From positions 1-6,131 of the forward strand of contig MHDQ01000286.1 of assembly GCA_001803565.1 (NCBI GenBank): a DNA stretch of 6,131 nt, written 5' to 3'. The notes below the pieces were generated by a model that had not been told where the DNA came from, searched no databases, and saw only the letters and a list, made by a program, of their open reading frames with translations. A program made the position numbers and the translations under genes. The first letter of the stretch is position 1. Each line of letters opens with the position of its first letter. This document shows positions 273 through 6,131 of the stretch, in pieces. The stretch comes from Nitrospinae bacterium RIFCSPLOWO2_12_FULL_45_22 (lineage in GTDB: Bacteria; 2-12-FULL-45-22).

Positions 273-1985
273 ATGTTTTCTAAGGAAACTTTGCAGAAAG
301 ACAAGGGCCTGAAAGAAAAGTGGGAAAAAGCATCTAGCGATATACTCACAGGGCAGAAATTGAATCTGAGAACTAGTTCAGGTATAGAACTCAAACCATT
401 ATATACTCCAGAAGATTTAGCTGAAATGGATTATTATAAGTTGGGAGTGCCAGGAGAATATCCTTATGTACGAGGCAATTATTCGTTACAATACCAGATA
501 AACCCTTTTATCCAGAATCAATTTTTTGGGTTCGGTACGCCGAGCGAGACCCGTGGTAGGAGAGACTGGTTAGCCAAACTCGGCTGTAGCTATAAAGTCG
601 GCACTGAAGAACAACTTCCCTTAGTTATTGCTATGGATTTACCTACCCTTAAGGGGTTGGACCCGGACGAGCCAGAGGCCCGTGGGAGGGTGGGCCATGG
701 CGGGGTATCTATTAGTACTATTGATGACATTGGAGTAATAATGGAAGGGCTCCCTCTGGATAAGACATGTGTAATATGGAATGCTTTTGATGGAACATTG
801 CCCATCCATGCCTTATATTTTGCTTATGCCCTGGATATTCGTAGGGAGCCATTAGAAAGGCTCTTTATGGCTATCCCTAATAATATAAGTAACCAGTGGG
901 CACATGACTGGGCAGGATTCCCTCATAAAACCGCAATAAAACTTGAAATAGAGCTTATTAAGTTTATTATTGATAATTGTCCTACCTCCCTCCATACCGT
1001 CATTGAAGGCTATGAAACCGCTGAAGCAGGTGCTACCCCGGTTCAGGAAGTAGCAGTTATGCTAGCTTATGCTATTTATTTAATGGAAGAATGTATCAAA
1101 GCAGGTCTTGATCCAGATGCTGTAGCACCTGGCCTTTGGGCCCACCATCATCTCAGCCTAAATATCTTTGAAGAGATAGCTAAACTGAGGGCAGCCAGAA
1201 AACTATGGGCAAGAATCTTTAAAGAGAGATTTGGCTGTAACAAACCAGAATCCATTAAGTATAAAATAATAGCCGCCGAAACTGCTGGGATAGAATTAAC
1301 CGCTTTGGAGCCCTTAAACAATATAATACGATTAACTATCATGACTTTGGCAGGAATATTGGGAGGGGTGGAAGGGATTTTTACGGCTGCCTATGATGAG
1401 GCGCTAGGTATTCCTACTGAAGAATCAGCCCAAGTTGCAGTAAGAACCCAACAGATTTTAGCGGAAGAGACCGATCTCTGCTGGGTTACTGATCCCTTGG
1501 GCGGTTCATACTATATAGAATGGCTCACCAAGAGAATAGAAGAAGAGGTGGTTAATTTATTGGGCAGGATTGAAGAAATGGGCGGTTTCTTAAGAGCCTG
1601 CGAATCTGGTTGGATAAGGCGAGAGATAGCAAGGAGTGCCAACGAGCGGCAAGAAAAGATTAAGCAGGGGGAGAAGGTAATTATTGGGGTAAATAAATAT
1701 AGAATAGAACAAAGACCTAAGATTAAAGGATTCAGGGTACCACTGGAAGTGGAGGAAAGAATAAGAGAGCGGTTAGGAAGGTATAAGAGAGATCGTGATA
1801 ATAGTAAGATCAAGAGCTCACTCGGACAAATTAAAGAGGCGGCAGAGAAAATCGAGAAAGAATGGCCTGAATCCTGTGGGAGCTTGATGCCTGTATTAAT
1901 AGAGGCCTCCCGTGCCGGGTGTACCCTGGGAGAGATGCATGGGGTTCTTAGGGAAGTGTTTGGCTATGGTTTTTATTCAGGATAA
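273..1985 (+). CDS. B12-dependent acyl-CoA mutase, large subunit (first copy)
   Basis: This is a 570-residue large subunit of the methylmalonyl-CoA mutase superfamily, the cytoplasmic barrel that holds the acyl-CoA and adenosylcobalamin during radical carbon-skeleton rearrangement. It has no B12 domain; that is supplied by the separate small subunits downstream. Family landmarks in order are RGNY (67-70), GFGT (86-89), MDLPT (121-125), DPDEP (130-134), EAGATPVQE (251-259), the FEEIAKLRAARKLWA helix (299-313), LNNIIR (348-353), YDEALGIPTE (374-383), VTDPLGGSYYIE (405-416) and IGVNKY (471-476). By hand alignment to Propionibacterium methylmalonyl-CoA mutase, Tyr89 is Phe84, Arg207 falls at His211/Asp212, His244 is Glu248 (GYE in place of GYH), Arg283 is Gly287 and Gln330 is Glu336. 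Loss of that His is highly unusual, so the substrate is probably not methylmalonyl-CoA. The start is fixed by a purine-rich ribosome site (AAGGGAGGGAGAG, 256-268). The small subunit follows after 15 nt. It is about 55% identical by eye to the large subunit at 2899-4608. Superfamily certain, reaction unknown. Confidence 0.93.
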   Translation: MFSKETLQKDKGLKEKWEKASSDILTGQKLNLRTSSGIELKPLYTPEDLAEMDYYKLGVPGEYPYVRGNYSLQYQINPFIQNQFFGFGTPSETRGRRDWLAKLGCSYKVGTEEQLPLVIAMDLPTLKGLDPDEPEARGRVGHGGVSISTIDDIGVIMEGLPLDKTCVIWNAFDGTLPIHALYFAYALDIRREPLERLFMAIPNNISNQWAHDWAGFPHKTAIKLEIELIKFIIDNCPTSLHTVIEGYETAEAGATPVQEVAVMLAYAIYLMEECIKAGLDPDAVAPGLWAHHHLSLNIFEEIAKLRAARKLWARIFKERFGCNKPESIKYKIIAAETAGIELTALEPLNNIIRLTIMTLAGILGGVEGIFTAAYDEALGIPTEESAQVAVRTQQILAEETDLCWVTDPLGGSYYIEWLTKRIEEEVVNLLGRIEEMGGFLRACESGWIRREIARSANERQEKIKQGEKVIIGVNKYRIEQRPKIKGFRVPLEVEERIRERLGRYKRDRDNSKIKSSLGQIKEAAEKIEKEWPESCGSLMPVLIEASRAGCTLGEMHGVLREVFGYGFYSG

Positions 1986-2000: not shown

Positions 2001-2411
2001 ATGGAAGAAGGGGATAGGAAGAAAATCAGGGTACTATTAGCTCAAACTCGCCTGGATTCCCATGGTGTAGGCTTACGGTACCTGAGCAGGACCTTGATGG
2101 ATGAAGGGATGGAGGTAATAATAGTCCGATATGGCGTTATAGAAGAGGTAGCAAAGGCAGCCTTGGAAGAGAATGTTGATGTTGTCGGATTAAGTTATTA
2201 TTTTCCTGGGTTTGAGTATGAAATTCCTCTACTGATGAGGCTGCTGAAGGAAAAGGGTATGGATGATCTAATAATCATTGTGGGCGGTATAATAGATGAC
2301 GAAGAAGAGGCTAAATTGCTGGAGTGGGGCGTTAAAGGGGTCTTCACTCCAGGTAGGCCAGTACAGGACGTAATTGAATGTATAATTTCTCATGTTGGAG
2401 TCAGGTCTTGA
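2001..2411 (+). CDS. B12-binding small subunit of acyl-CoA mutase (first copy)
   Basis: A 136-residue stand-alone cobalamin-binding domain (Rossmann-like) of the kind that pairs with split mutases such as isobutyryl-CoA or 2-hydroxyisobutyryl-CoA mutase, whose small subunits are also about 136 aa. The base-off/His-on signature DxHxxG is present as D19-S-H21-G-V-G24, so His21 should be the lower cobalt ligand. The later nucleotide-loop contacts are GLS (63-65, with YY where many homologues have xL), VGG (94-96) and FTPG (115-118). The lysine that forms a triad with this Asp and His in methylmalonyl-CoA mutase (Lys604) is Gln15 here, whereas the neighbouring small subunit keeps Lys. The usual QTPE stretch after the second strand is also replaced (RYGVIEEV). 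A GGAG at 1987-1990 precedes the ATG, and the stop lies 13 nt before the next start, indicating translational coupling. It probably partners the upstream large subunit, but cross-pairing is possible. Confidence 0.92.
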   Translation: MEEGDRKKIRVLLAQTRLDSHGVGLRYLSRTLMDEGMEVIIVRYGVIEEVAKAALEENVDVVGLSYYFPGFEYEIPLLMRLLKEKGMDDLIIIVGGIIDDEEEAKLLEWGVKGVFTPGRPVQDVIECIISHVGVRS

Positions 2412-2412
2412 T

Positions 2413-2418
2413 AGGAGG
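2413..2418 (+). promoter_or_regulatory. AGGAGG ribosome site that sets the second small-subunit start
   Basis: A perfect AGGAGG sits 6 nt before the ATG at 2425. An in-frame ATG at 2392, inside the preceding gene, would add 11 residues but has no comparable site and would put extra sequence before the conserved KKIRVLL-type beginning shared by both small subunits. This favours 2425. Confidence 0.85.
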
Positions 2419-2424
2419 CTAGCA

Positions 2425-2832
2425 ATGGAAGGAAAGAAAAATATTAGGGTGCTCTTGTCCAAGAGTGACCAGGATGCTCATGAAGTTGGTATAAGGTATG
2501 TGGCCAGCTCTCTTAAGGATGCGGGAATGGAGGTGATTTTCACCAGATACACAATCATAGATGAAGTAGCTGAGACAGCCTTACAAGAAAATGTGGATGT
2601 TATAGGATTGAGTTTCTATGGTGCCGGCTTGAGGTATGATATACCAAGGTTGATGGAACTTTTAAAAGAGAGAAATATAGAGGATACAAGGGTCCTAGTT
2701 GGTGGGACAATAACAGAACAAGAAAAGGCCGAATTGCTGAAGACCGGTATTAGAGGGGTTTTTACTCCAGGCAGCGGTTCAGTACAAGGTATTGTCAACT
2801 TTATAACCTCTAACATCTATGGAACGGGATAA
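2425..2832 (+). CDS. B12-binding small subunit of acyl-CoA mutase (second copy)
   Basis: A 135-residue stand-alone cobalamin-binding subunit, about half identical by eye to the one just upstream. It has the complete K-x3-D-x-H triad of methylmalonyl-CoA mutases: Lys13, Asp17 and His19, with Gly22 closing DxHxxG (D-A-H-E-V-G). Other family points are GLS (61-63, followed by FY), VGG (92-94) and FTPG (113-116). As in its neighbour, the standard QTPE segment is replaced by a sequence starting RY (41-42), which suggests that both belong to one diverged clade. The start at 2425 is chosen from AGGAGG at 2413-2418. A 66-nt gap leads to the second large subunit; it contains only a weak dyad (CCCAA/TTGGG, 2859-2869) and the next ribosome site. 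Its position directly before that large subunit suggests that the two form a pair. Confidence 0.92.
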   Translation: MEGKKNIRVLLSKSDQDAHEVGIRYVASSLKDAGMEVIFTRYTIIDEVAETALQENVDVIGLSFYGAGLRYDIPRLMELLKERNIEDTRVLVGGTITEQEKAELLKTGIRGVFTPGSGSVQGIVNFITSNIYGTG

Positions 2833-2898: not shown

Positions 2899-4608
2899 AT
2901 GTTCAGCAAAAAAGTAGAGGATGAGAACAAGATCATGGAGGAAGAATGGGAAAAGCAATATTCTATAATGATGGATAAGTTGAAAGCCATTAATAGATCA
3001 GGCATTGAGCTTAAGCCTTCTTATACCCCTACGGATATCCAAGGGATGGACTATAAGGATATAGCACTACCTGGGCAATATCCTTTTACCAGGGGGAATT
3101 ATCCTTTTCATTATCAGGTCATGCCCTTGATGATGATGCACGGTTATGGTTTTGGTACTGCAGAGGAGACCCTCATGAGGAGGGAGTGGCTTTCGAGACT
3201 GGGGAGTCGCCTGAAGGTGGGCACTGAAGATGACCTTACAGTGTGTATATTTACCATGGATCTGCCCACCCAGAGGGGCTATGACCCTGATGAACCAGGG
3301 GCAAGGGGAAGAGTGGGAGACTGTGGGATGTCCCTGAGCACCATCAAGGACATGGAGGCGATCTTTGAAGGATTACCTTTGGAGAAGGTTCTTACAACCT
3401 TTATTGGATTCGATGCCAGCATGATCCTTGTTGCTCTGTATGCAGCTTACTGTAAATATATCAGGAAGGAGCCATTGGATAAATTATACATGCTGTGCTG
3501 TAATCTCTTTCATCACCAATGGTTCTGGGATAGTGCTGCATTTCCCCCTGAGACAGCCATGAAACTGGAGACAGAGTTTGTAAAGTTCATAGTGGAAACC
3601 TGCCCCATGTCTTATCCCGGGGTTGTGGATGGTTACAATGTTGCTGAGGCGGGGGCAACCCCAGTGCAGGAAGCTGCCTTTTCCATTGTCGCTGCAGTGA
3701 GTCTAATGGAGGAGTGTGTAAAGGCAGGTCTTGATCCTGACAAGGTAGCTTCCAGATTTATCGGCCATCCCCATATCAGTCTCAATTTCTTTGAGGAGAT
3801 AGCAAAGTTAAGGGCCATGAGGAAAGTATGGGCTAAGATATTAAAAGAGAGGTTTGGCTGTAAAAGGCCCGAATCCCTTCAGCTAAAGTTCCTTGATGCC
3901 CAGACAGCGGGCTTTGACCTTACCGCTCAGGAGCCCCTCAATAACATTATAAGAACTACCATCATGGCCCTGGCAGGCATGCTGGCGGATGTAGAAGGTA
4001 TGTGGGTTTCCTCCTATGATGAGGCCCTGGGTATTCCCACTGAAGAAGCAGTCCAGGTAGCTGTCAGGACTTACCAGATCCTCCATGAAGAGACAGACAT
4101 ACCCCATGTTACCGATCCCTTGGGGGGCTCTTATTATATAGAGTGGCTTACTACCAGGATGGAAGAGGAAATCATGGGGTTAATGAAGAAGATGGAAGAC
4201 CTGGGAGGATACATGAAGTGCTGGCAGACGGGCTGGATAAGACAACAGGTGGAGAAAAGTGCCAATGAGAGGCTTAAAAAATTGAATGAAGGAAAGGAAG
4301 CAAAGATAGGAGTGAACAAATATAGGATTGAAGAGGTACCGAAGATGACTGCCTTCAGGGTTCCACCTGAGGTAGAACTCAAGGCTATAGAAAGGGTAAA
4401 GAAATACAGGCAGGGGAGGGACAATTCCAGGGTTGAATCTGCTCTGGCAAAGGTAAAGGAGGCAGCTATTGCCATAGATAGAGATTGGCCCAGATCCTGT
4501 GGAGTACTCATGCCTGCCTTAATTGAGGCTGCCAGGTGTGAGGCCACTGCCGGGGAGATGCACCGTATCCTTAGAGATATTTTTGGATTTGGCTATTATT
4601 CAGGTTAA
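2899..4608 (+). CDS. B12-dependent acyl-CoA mutase, large subunit (second copy)
   Basis: A 569-residue paralogue of the first large subunit, with the same layout and no fused B12 domain. Landmarks: RGNY (65-68), GFGT (84-87), MDLPT (120-124), DPDEP (129-133), EAGATPVQE (250-258), FEEIAKLRAMRKVWA (298-312), LNNIIR (347-352), YDEALGIPTE (373-382), VTDPLGGSYYIE (404-415), IGVNKY (470-475) and the shared C-terminal YSG. By hand alignment to methylmalonyl-CoA mutase, Tyr89 is Gly82 (followed by Tyr83), the Arg207 site lies around Trp210/Asp211, and His244 is Asn247 (GYN in place of GYH). Unlike the first copy it keeps an Arg at the Arg283 position (Arg286) and Gln at 330 (Gln335). The pocket therefore differs both from known mutases and from its sister. 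AAAAGGAGG at 2883-2891, 7 nt before the ATG, supports this start. Codon use looks somewhat more GC-rich than in the first copy. Function: B12-dependent acyl-CoA mutase with unassigned substrate. Confidence 0.93.
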   Translation: MFSKKVEDENKIMEEEWEKQYSIMMDKLKAINRSGIELKPSYTPTDIQGMDYKDIALPGQYPFTRGNYPFHYQVMPLMMMHGYGFGTAEETLMRREWLSRLGSRLKVGTEDDLTVCIFTMDLPTQRGYDPDEPGARGRVGDCGMSLSTIKDMEAIFEGLPLEKVLTTFIGFDASMILVALYAAYCKYIRKEPLDKLYMLCCNLFHHQWFWDSAAFPPETAMKLETEFVKFIVETCPMSYPGVVDGYNVAEAGATPVQEAAFSIVAAVSLMEECVKAGLDPDKVASRFIGHPHISLNFFEEIAKLRAMRKVWAKILKERFGCKRPESLQLKFLDAQTAGFDLTAQEPLNNIIRTTIMALAGMLADVEGMWVSSYDEALGIPTEEAVQVAVRTYQILHEETDIPHVTDPLGGSYYIEWLTTRMEEEIMGLMKKMEDLGGYMKCWQTGWIRQQVEKSANERLKKLNEGKEAKIGVNKYRIEEVPKMTAFRVPPEVELKAIERVKKYRQGRDNSRVESALAKVKEAAIAIDRDWPRSCGVLMPALIEAARCEATAGEMHRILRDIFGFGYYSG

Positions 4609-4625: not shown

Positions 4626-4820
4626 TGTAACTATTCAGGCACAAAGAGACAAAGGCACATAGGCACAAAGTTCTAGGAATACGATCGGAATGTAGGACAC
4701 AACCTATCCAAATACCGTTTTTGTAAACATCTTATGGGAAGTTAAGCAGCTCATTCTCTTCAGTTCTCTCGACTTTGTGCCTTTGGTGCTCTGTGCCTTT
4801 GTGCCTACCTGAATAGTTAC
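4626..4820. mobile_element. MITE-like inverted-repeat element, non-coding
   Basis: GTAACTATTCAGG (4627-4639) is matched perfectly in reverse complement by 4808-4820. Inward of these ends, both arms carry degenerate copies of a GGCACAAAG-type motif (left arm to 4671, right arm from 4772). By eye the inner arms match at about 25 of 32 positions after a 4-base offset. They enclose a central 100 nt without coding potential. GTTATGG occurs directly outside both ends (4619-4625 and 4821-4827), resembling a target-site duplication. There is no transposase, so if mobile it would move in trans. In RNA the arms would form a long imperfect hairpin that could reduce or separate downstream expression. It could instead be a processed repeat family rather than a true transposable element. 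Confidence 0.65.
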
Positions 4821-4836: not shown

Positions 4837-6131
4837 ATGGAACATAATAGTTTAGAAAACCAGGCTGATGATACCTGGCTACCGAGTATGTGTGGCATGT
4901 GTATGAATTCGTGCGGCATACTGGTTCATCGTATAGATGGGAAGGTAGTAAAGATCGAGGGGAATCCAGAATGTCCCAATAGCCGGGGGCGACTGTGTCC
5001 CAAAGGGCAAGCGGGCATGATGCTCCTTTACGATCCCCACCGCTTAAAAACCCCGATGAAGCGGACAAACCCGCAAAAGGGTATTGGTATAGACCCTCAG
5101 TGGGTAGAGATCAGTTGGGAAGAGGCCCTTGATACCATAGCAGAGAAGCTCAAGCAGATAAGGAGCGAAGACCCCAGAAAAGTCATTTATGCCTATAATG
5201 TTTGTAATATCGCTAAGACTTTCTTTACTATGGCCTGGGCGGGGGCCTTTGGTACCCTAAACACTTATACCTCCGCTGGAATCCATTGTGGTATGCCGGG
5301 CCACCTATTCCGGGGATTAATGAGCGGTTCATGGTGGCATACTCCGGACTACAAATTTACCAACTATTTAATATCGGTAGGGTCAGGCGATGGCACTCAT
5401 TCAGGGTATGCCTTTACTTCTTTTGCACAACAATTTGCCGAGGCCAGGGCGAGGGGGATGAAGGTTATTGCCTTTGATCCATTATTGAGCCCTACCGCGG
5501 AAAAGGCCGATGAATGGGTACCAGTGAGGCCCGGTACCGATGGGGCATGGGCATTGGCCATGCTCAATGTAATCCTGAATGAGTTGGGTCAGTACGATAA
5601 AAAATATATCAAAGAACATACTAACGGCCCCTACCTGATCGGACCAGATGGCCATTATGTGAGAGACAAACAGACTAATAAACCAATGGTGTGGGACTTA
5701 ACGGAAGAGTGTGCTAAGCCTTTTGATGACCCCAACATAAGCGATTATGCCATTTTGGGTTCTTATAATGTCAATGGAGTAATATCTAAACCGGGCTTCC
5801 AGTTATTGAAAGACTGGGTCAAGAAGTATACCCCAGAGGAAGCAGAAAAGATAACTACTATACCAGCCAATACCATACGCCGCATAGCCAGCGAATATGT
5901 GAATGCTGCTAGGATAGGAAGCACTATAGTTATTGATGGTCATGAGCTACCTTATAGGCCCGCCTGTGTCCGAACATTCAAAGGACCAGACGGCCATAAG
6001 CACGCCACCCTTTCCGCCATGGCCTTAGAACTCTTAAACGAAGTTGTAGGGAATCCGGGTGCCGTAGGAGGCATCCTGGGAAATGCCTCCCGATGGTTCG
6101 GCTATCCTCAAACCAGTTTGCCTGCCTGGGA
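4837..6131 (+). CDS. Molybdopterin oxidoreductase with [4Fe-4S], 3' end cut by window
   Basis: The first 431 residues of a large molybdopterin enzyme of the DMSO reductase / formate dehydrogenase family, open to the window edge without a stop. Members bind a bis-pyranopterin Mo or W cofactor and run two-electron redox reactions (a few are non-redox hydratases). The N-terminal cluster motif is C19-x2-C22-x3-C26-x27-C54, followed by LCPKG (53-57) and DPHRLKTPMKR (66-76). A likely metal ligand is Cys151 in the HCGMPGH stretch (150-156), at the usual place for a Cys, Ser or SeCys ligand. A pterin-site block follows, with FDP, EKADEWVPVRPGTDGAWAL and nearby residues, about 207-248. There is no twin-arginine or other signal peptide, so it is probably cytoplasmic. 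GGAGGT at 4826-4831, 5 nt before the ATG, fixes the start. Family members are typically 650-900 aa, so about a third to a half is missing. Electron-transfer partners may lie beyond the window. Substrate not predictable. Confidence 0.93.
   Translation, partial: MEHNSLENQADDTWLPSMCGMCMNSCGILVHRIDGKVVKIEGNPECPNSRGRLCPKGQAGMMLLYDPHRLKTPMKRTNPQKGIGIDPQWVEISWEEALDTIAEKLKQIRSEDPRKVIYAYNVCNIAKTFFTMAWAGAFGTLNTYTSAGIHCGMPGHLFRGLMSGSWWHTPDYKFTNYLISVGSGDGTHSGYAFTSFAQQFAEARARGMKVIAFDPLLSPTAEKADEWVPVRPGTDGAWALAMLNVILNELGQYDKKYIKEHTNGPYLIGPDGHYVRDKQTNKPMVWDLTEECAKPFDDPNISDYAILGSYNVNGVISKPGFQLLKDWVKKYTPEEAEKITTIPANTIRRIASEYVNAARIGSTIVIDGHELPYRPACVRTFKGPDGHKHATLSAMALELLNEVVGNPGAVGGILGNASRWFGYPQTSLPAW

Follow-up and report, generated by a model that had tools for sequence, protein, structure and literature searches.

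The window, the whole stretch of 6,131 nucleotides analysed here, is the start of its contig (G000:C286) in an assembly that is 85% complete. It carries two genes for large mutase subunits (A and B), two genes for small B12-binding subunits (s1 and s2) and the beginning of a molybdopterin oxidoreductase gene (Table 1). As listed, s2 starts within s1; a start at the ATG of position 2425 is likelier. A run of N directly after the last base of the window (L073:6132-6175 or so) lies inside the oxidoreductase gene, which is therefore incomplete in the assembly. The oxidoreductase has thiosulfate and arsenate reductases as its nearest solved relatives, scored below every equivalog cut-off, and is a possible pathway partner of the mutases. 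Between B and this gene we detected an inverted repeat, rich in GGCACAAAG, that resembles a repeat or a small mobile element; it may uncouple the two genes in transcription. No Rfam match was found within the window.

Table 1. Genes, motifs and repeat detected in the window
Feature	Positions	Strand	Remarks
Large mutase subunit A	273-1985	+	ORF of 570 aa; PF01642, E 3e-140
A motif GYETAE	1008-1025	+	Glu248 (codon 1014-1016) aligned with His244
A His291-His292-His293	1143-1151	+	291/293 aligned with P. shermanii Phe287/Gly289, strand 6; candidate His244 stand-in
Small B12-binding subunit s1	2001-2411	+	136 aa; PF02310, E 4e-14; DSHGVG = DxHxxG
Small B12-binding subunit s2	2392-2832	+	PF02310, E 2e-18; DAHEVG = DxHxxG
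Large mutase subunit B	2899-4608	+	569 aa; PF01642; 56% identical to A
B motif GYNVAE	3631-3648	+	Asn247 (codon 3637-3639) aligned with His244
B His290-Pro291-His292	3766-3774	+	Aligned with P. shermanii Phe287/Gly289
Inverted repeat	4637-4671 / 4772-4806		35-nt arms, 80% complementary
Molybdopterin oxidoreductase	4837-6131	+	Fe4S4 and Mo/W domains (Pfam); continues past the window end into the gap

A and B scored 468.6 and 454.1 bits with PF01642 (gathering threshold 22.1), and the small subunits, both with the DxHxxG cobalamin-ligand motif, scored 52.9 and 67 bits with PF02310 (gathering threshold 32.1). The large subunits were above the cut-off of TIGR00641, yet far under the equivalog cut-off for methylmalonyl-CoA mutase (MCM; NF006944, 356.5 and 339.2 bits vs 876), a comparison in which the separate B12 chain alone lowers the score. 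The IcmF equivalog cut-off was likewise far from reached.

The AlphaFold models had a mean pLDDT of 67.7 for A and 65.4 for B, with much of the barrel below 50; the A model, at this confidence, matched the MCM and 2-hydroxyisobutyryl-CoA mutase (HCM) structures with Z of about 40 over 476-482 residues (477-479 for MCM), the MCM H244A mutant structure 1e1c included, compared with about 14 for unrelated barrels. A and B share with MCM (P. shermanii 1req, human 2xij) the fold, the GY..EAG motif, E247, G333 and E370, and differ from it in having the B12 domain on a separate chain. IcmF (4xc6) matched the fold with Z of about 36, but its fused G-protein is found in neither A nor B. The best PDB sequence match was HcmAB (4r3u), which is similar in size, has separate large and small subunits and, as in A and B, no Arg207.

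The histidine of the GYH motif, His244 of P. shermanii MCM, is replaced in both large subunits. A reads ...EGYETAEAGATPVQE with Glu248 (GAA), B reads ...DGYNVAEAGATPVQE with Asn247 (AAT), and in the alignment with human MCM, P. shermanii MCM and HCM both residues fall on His244. Gly-Tyr stands before this position and an intact Glu-Ala-Gly-Ala-Thr-Pro-Val-Gln-Glu after it; with these brackets on both sides the alignment is beyond doubt, and together with the translations it bears out the first-pass annotation, which had read no His in either motif. Glu at this position was found in A only, while Asn is common to B and the homologue L084 of another genome. A sequencing slip is unlikely, because L084 also has Asn and because a change from His (CAY) to Glu (GAA) takes two base changes. 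The His is dispensable for folding, as seen from the P. shermanii H244A structure (1e1c), which has the same fold without it; that is a laboratory mutant with the remaining pocket intact, whereas A and B are natural and have the pocket rebuilt.

The change is not confined to position 244. Compared with MCM, A and B are altered at His244, Arg207, Tyr89, Arg82, Arg87 and Gln197. The residue criteria used were Tyr89, Arg207 and His244 for MCM, Phe 89, Gln 207 and His244 for isobutyryl-CoA mutase, and Ile90, Asp117 (A. tertiaricarbonis numbering; aligned with P. shermanii 89 and 116) and His244 for HCM. In these positions A has Phe84, His211 and Glu248, with Ala aligned to the HCM Asp117, and B has Gly82, Trp210 and Asn247, with Thr there; Phe84 of A agrees with isobutyryl-CoA mutase, but His211 and Glu248 do not. 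The human R228Q variant, equivalent to Arg207, has no detectable activity (PMC10356863), so with His (A) and Trp (B) in place of Arg207 neither protein is expected to act as a methylmalonyl-CoA mutase.

A, B and L084 keep none of five acyl contacts and two to three of ten CoA contacts, at positions which we take to be those of the human MCM-malonyl-CoA complex. HCM (4r3u), in comparison, has His244 and keeps 8/10 CoA and 3/5 acyl contacts, and the His244-containing rows average 7.0 and 4.1. The seven to eight lost CoA contacts are occupied by Met, Ile, Asn and Trp. All three proteins retain the AdoCbl-side residues E247, G333 and E370, and also Y243, and in the window a DxHxxG-containing B12 subunit lies next to each of the large subunits. 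With the radical half kept and the substrate half rebuilt, an active enzyme that takes a new substrate is more plausible than decay.

In a tree computed without the motif columns, A, B and L084 (62% identity) formed one clade (support 100/100), nested in a ten-row clade with the same support. This larger clade is monophyletic and has neither His244 (0/10 rows) nor Arg87 (absent in 10/10). The split between His and non-His rows took five changes on both trees (108 non-redundant rows). With the trio inside an all-non-His clade and so few changes on the tree, loss in a single ancestor is the simplest reading: the His would have been lost before A and B separated, and Glu and Asn would be later changes. 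The first-pass annotation had spoken of two different replacements in two paralogues; read as independent losses these are not supported, since the His was most likely absent already in the ancestor of the ten-row clade. Within the clade position 244 is among the most variable (rank 475 of 509), and Tyr243 and Glu247 are invariant.

The other, uncharacterised clade relatives (L085-L088, L095-L097, L091-L107) resemble A and B in clade membership and in the absence of His244, Arg87 and Arg207. They differ in being only 40-46% identical, in having Asn, Phe, Tyr, Val, Gly or Ser at position 244 (the phylum was reached via a Deltaproteobacteria-labelled genome), and in having one large subunit per locus in the loci read, where the A/B locus has two. 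L084 was the only homologue found above 50% identity. No further close homologue was detected in 386 diverse genomes, in two genomes of the phylum to which the window belongs, in one genome of the G395 order, or, at a strict threshold, in the mutase-rich class described below. A named-genome scan on weak N-terminal patterns gave only more distant mutases, and among the matches listed by a plasmid tblastn there were only mutases at about 36%.

The His had been described as near-invariant, which stands for the characterised B12 acyl-CoA mutases checked, all with the same His, and for most ordinary mutases retrieved (the motif of the best matches across many lineages was nearly always GYH). It does not stand for the wider PF01642 family: His244 is absent in 79 of the 164 sequences collected and in 47 of 108 non-redundant rows, in a collection deliberately enriched in A/B relatives and thus neither a census nor a measure of natural frequencies. 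Loss of the His is thus more general than first stated, and it is undescribed in the literature searched; we found there no description of natural His244-lacking mutases, which, with incomplete coverage, is weak evidence of absence.

In the window's genome four full-length mutases have His244 and five lack it (E, N, N, N, A), and an additional split mutase gene and a fragment lack it as well. The split gene lies in overlapping frames (L080:7040-7846 / 7804-8736) with the motif GFIYHTAG, by frameshift or assembly error. With 44 B12-binding-domain matches in a 3.7 Mb, 85%-complete assembly, this is an unusually cobalamin-rich organism. The mutase-rich class (G601, G466, G431, G579, G622, G499, G527 and G554; loci L085-L185) has 13-32 MCM-type mutase candidates per genome in 8/8 genomes of 1.9-3.1 Mb each. 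Among the full-length mutases analysed, His244 is absent in 22/28 of G466 and 19/30 of G601. Most of the mutases examined in G466, G601 and G431 lack it, and many have Asp there with the CoA-binding arginines kept. Two small B12 subunits beside Asn-type mutases, L077:414-800 (-) and L152:4646-5068 (+), read SLGHSTG and SPGHATG; the Asp of DxHxxG is replaced in both, a change that one would not expect with His-on cobalamin binding.

At 56% overall identity, the pockets of A and B are identical at 7 of 27 positions only, the lowest value among the 1,812 pairs of the collection in the 50-64% identity range; since the pairs depend on one another, this is to be read as a rank, not as a probability. 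The 1,620 His-His pairs had a pocket mean of 20.8 and a minimum of 10, the 192 non-His pairs had a mean of 15.8, and B and L084 share 14/27. This rank suggests that A and B probably act on different substrates, whether they work as separate enzymes or form two dissimilar halves of a single complex.

No CoA-pathway gene lies within the window, and the hints on substrate come from relatives. L084 is followed by a gene of DUF1329, a family linked to growth on aromatic hydrocarbons: one such gene is reported to matter when Delftia grows on phenanthrene, and a benzene-degrading Desulfobacterota strain expresses another at a high level (PMC13101534). The clade relatives L085 and L086 are located among acyl-CoA dehydrogenase, crotonase and MaoC hydratase genes, and L085 also lies close to 2-hydroxyacyl-CoA-dehydratase-type genes. 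Judged from these contexts, the pathway would be one that degrades hydrophobic acyl-CoA compounds anaerobically. Glycyl-radical enzymes of the dehydratase/PFL type, neither at a named equivalog cut-off, were found near His244-lacking mutases in the window's genome (L076:9819-12359) and in G622 (L138:375-2828). A fumarate-addition pathway was set aside, since these two enzymes are of that type and none is in the window.

We suggest, with a probability of roughly 60%, that A and B with s1 and s2 are AdoCbl-dependent carbon-skeleton mutases from a so far undescribed MCM-family clade, in which the fold and the cobalamin/radical half are kept and the substrate half is rebuilt, acting in anaerobic catabolism on acyl substrates other than methylmalonyl-CoA that are probably CoA-bound and bulky or hydrophobic. 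AdoCbl homolysis and 1,2-migration would proceed as in MCM, and the hydrogen bond that the thioester carbonyl receives from His244 there may come from a strand-6 HxH together with Glu/Asn, or may be dispensable if the migrating group differs. The link to CoA comes from relatives of only 42-46% identity, because the window has no CoA-pathway gene and most CoA contacts are changed; that the substrate is hydrophobic is guessed from the kinds of residue present and from DUF1329.

Somewhat against the odds, A and B may perform ordinary acyl-CoA mutase chemistry with the thioester carbonyl held by another pocket His, either the strand-6 HxH or, in many relatives, position 330. Loss of His244 itself would then be of little consequence and only the substrate would differ, a sub-case of our preferred reading that denies new chemistry. 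Strand 6 of the barrel adjoins the strand carrying position 244, and all three trio members have the HxH at the Phe287/Gly289 positions (His291/His293 in A, His290/His292 in B). At positions 207, 287, 289 or 330, picked after the alignment had been inspected, a His is present in all members of the trio (3/3), in 5/7 of the remaining clade rows, 13/37 of the other His244-lacking rows and 1/58 of the His244 rows, and of all columns it is 330 where His is most strongly enriched when His244 is lacking (16/47 vs 0/61). However, 24 of those 37 other rows have no His at any of the four positions, and there were too few independent pairs for a tree-based test of relocation. The first-pass annotation had named another His at that place in the structure as grounds against its view; the HxH bears on this, but as a substitute for His244 it is, from these alignments, only suggestive.

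It is unlikely that A and B have abandoned CoA and act as mutases of some other compound, activated or free. The loss of most CoA-contact residues in both, the loss of Arg283 in A and the gene content of the window would fit such a change, but Arg283 is retained in B and L084, and clade members that likewise lack Arg82 and Arg87 sit in acyl-CoA enzyme operons. Equally improbable is that one large subunit is a non-catalytic partner, like the beta chain of Propionibacterium MCM, and the other the enzyme. One operon with two unlike large subunits, whose pockets differ more than in any comparable pair, would agree with it; the presence of E247, G333 and E370 in both proteins, with a DxHxxG B12 subunit beside each, speaks against it, as do the scores of 173.9 and 161.5 bits with the beta-type model TIGR00642 (equivalog cut-off 617). 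Decay of the two genes from copies of an ordinary mutase is hardly credible: a residue conserved in characterised mutases is lost, but the frames are full-length, the structural motifs are conserved, the loss is common to the whole clade and L084 retains Asn, so that the earlier preference for altered chemistry or substrate over decay is upheld, also by the AdoCbl-side residues, the neighbouring B12 subunits and the change of nearly the whole acyl/CoA contact set.

As far as we are aware, the known reactions of B12 acyl-CoA mutases number only a handful. A and B belong to a large, apparently undescribed branch with rebuilt substrate pockets, and probably rearrange compounds not yet identified. 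A wider proposal, which we consider doubtful, is that the branch without the conserved His handles a different migrating group or a non-CoA substrate and is one arm of a large radiation, with up to about 30 mutases per genome, for the anaerobic breakdown of branched and cyclic hydrophobic compounds. A deep branch in which the His and most substrate contacts are changed, with 20-30 copies in some anaerobes, implies that many carbon-skeleton rearrangements await assignment, and it offers natural variants for probing the role of His244 and a source of new biocatalysts.
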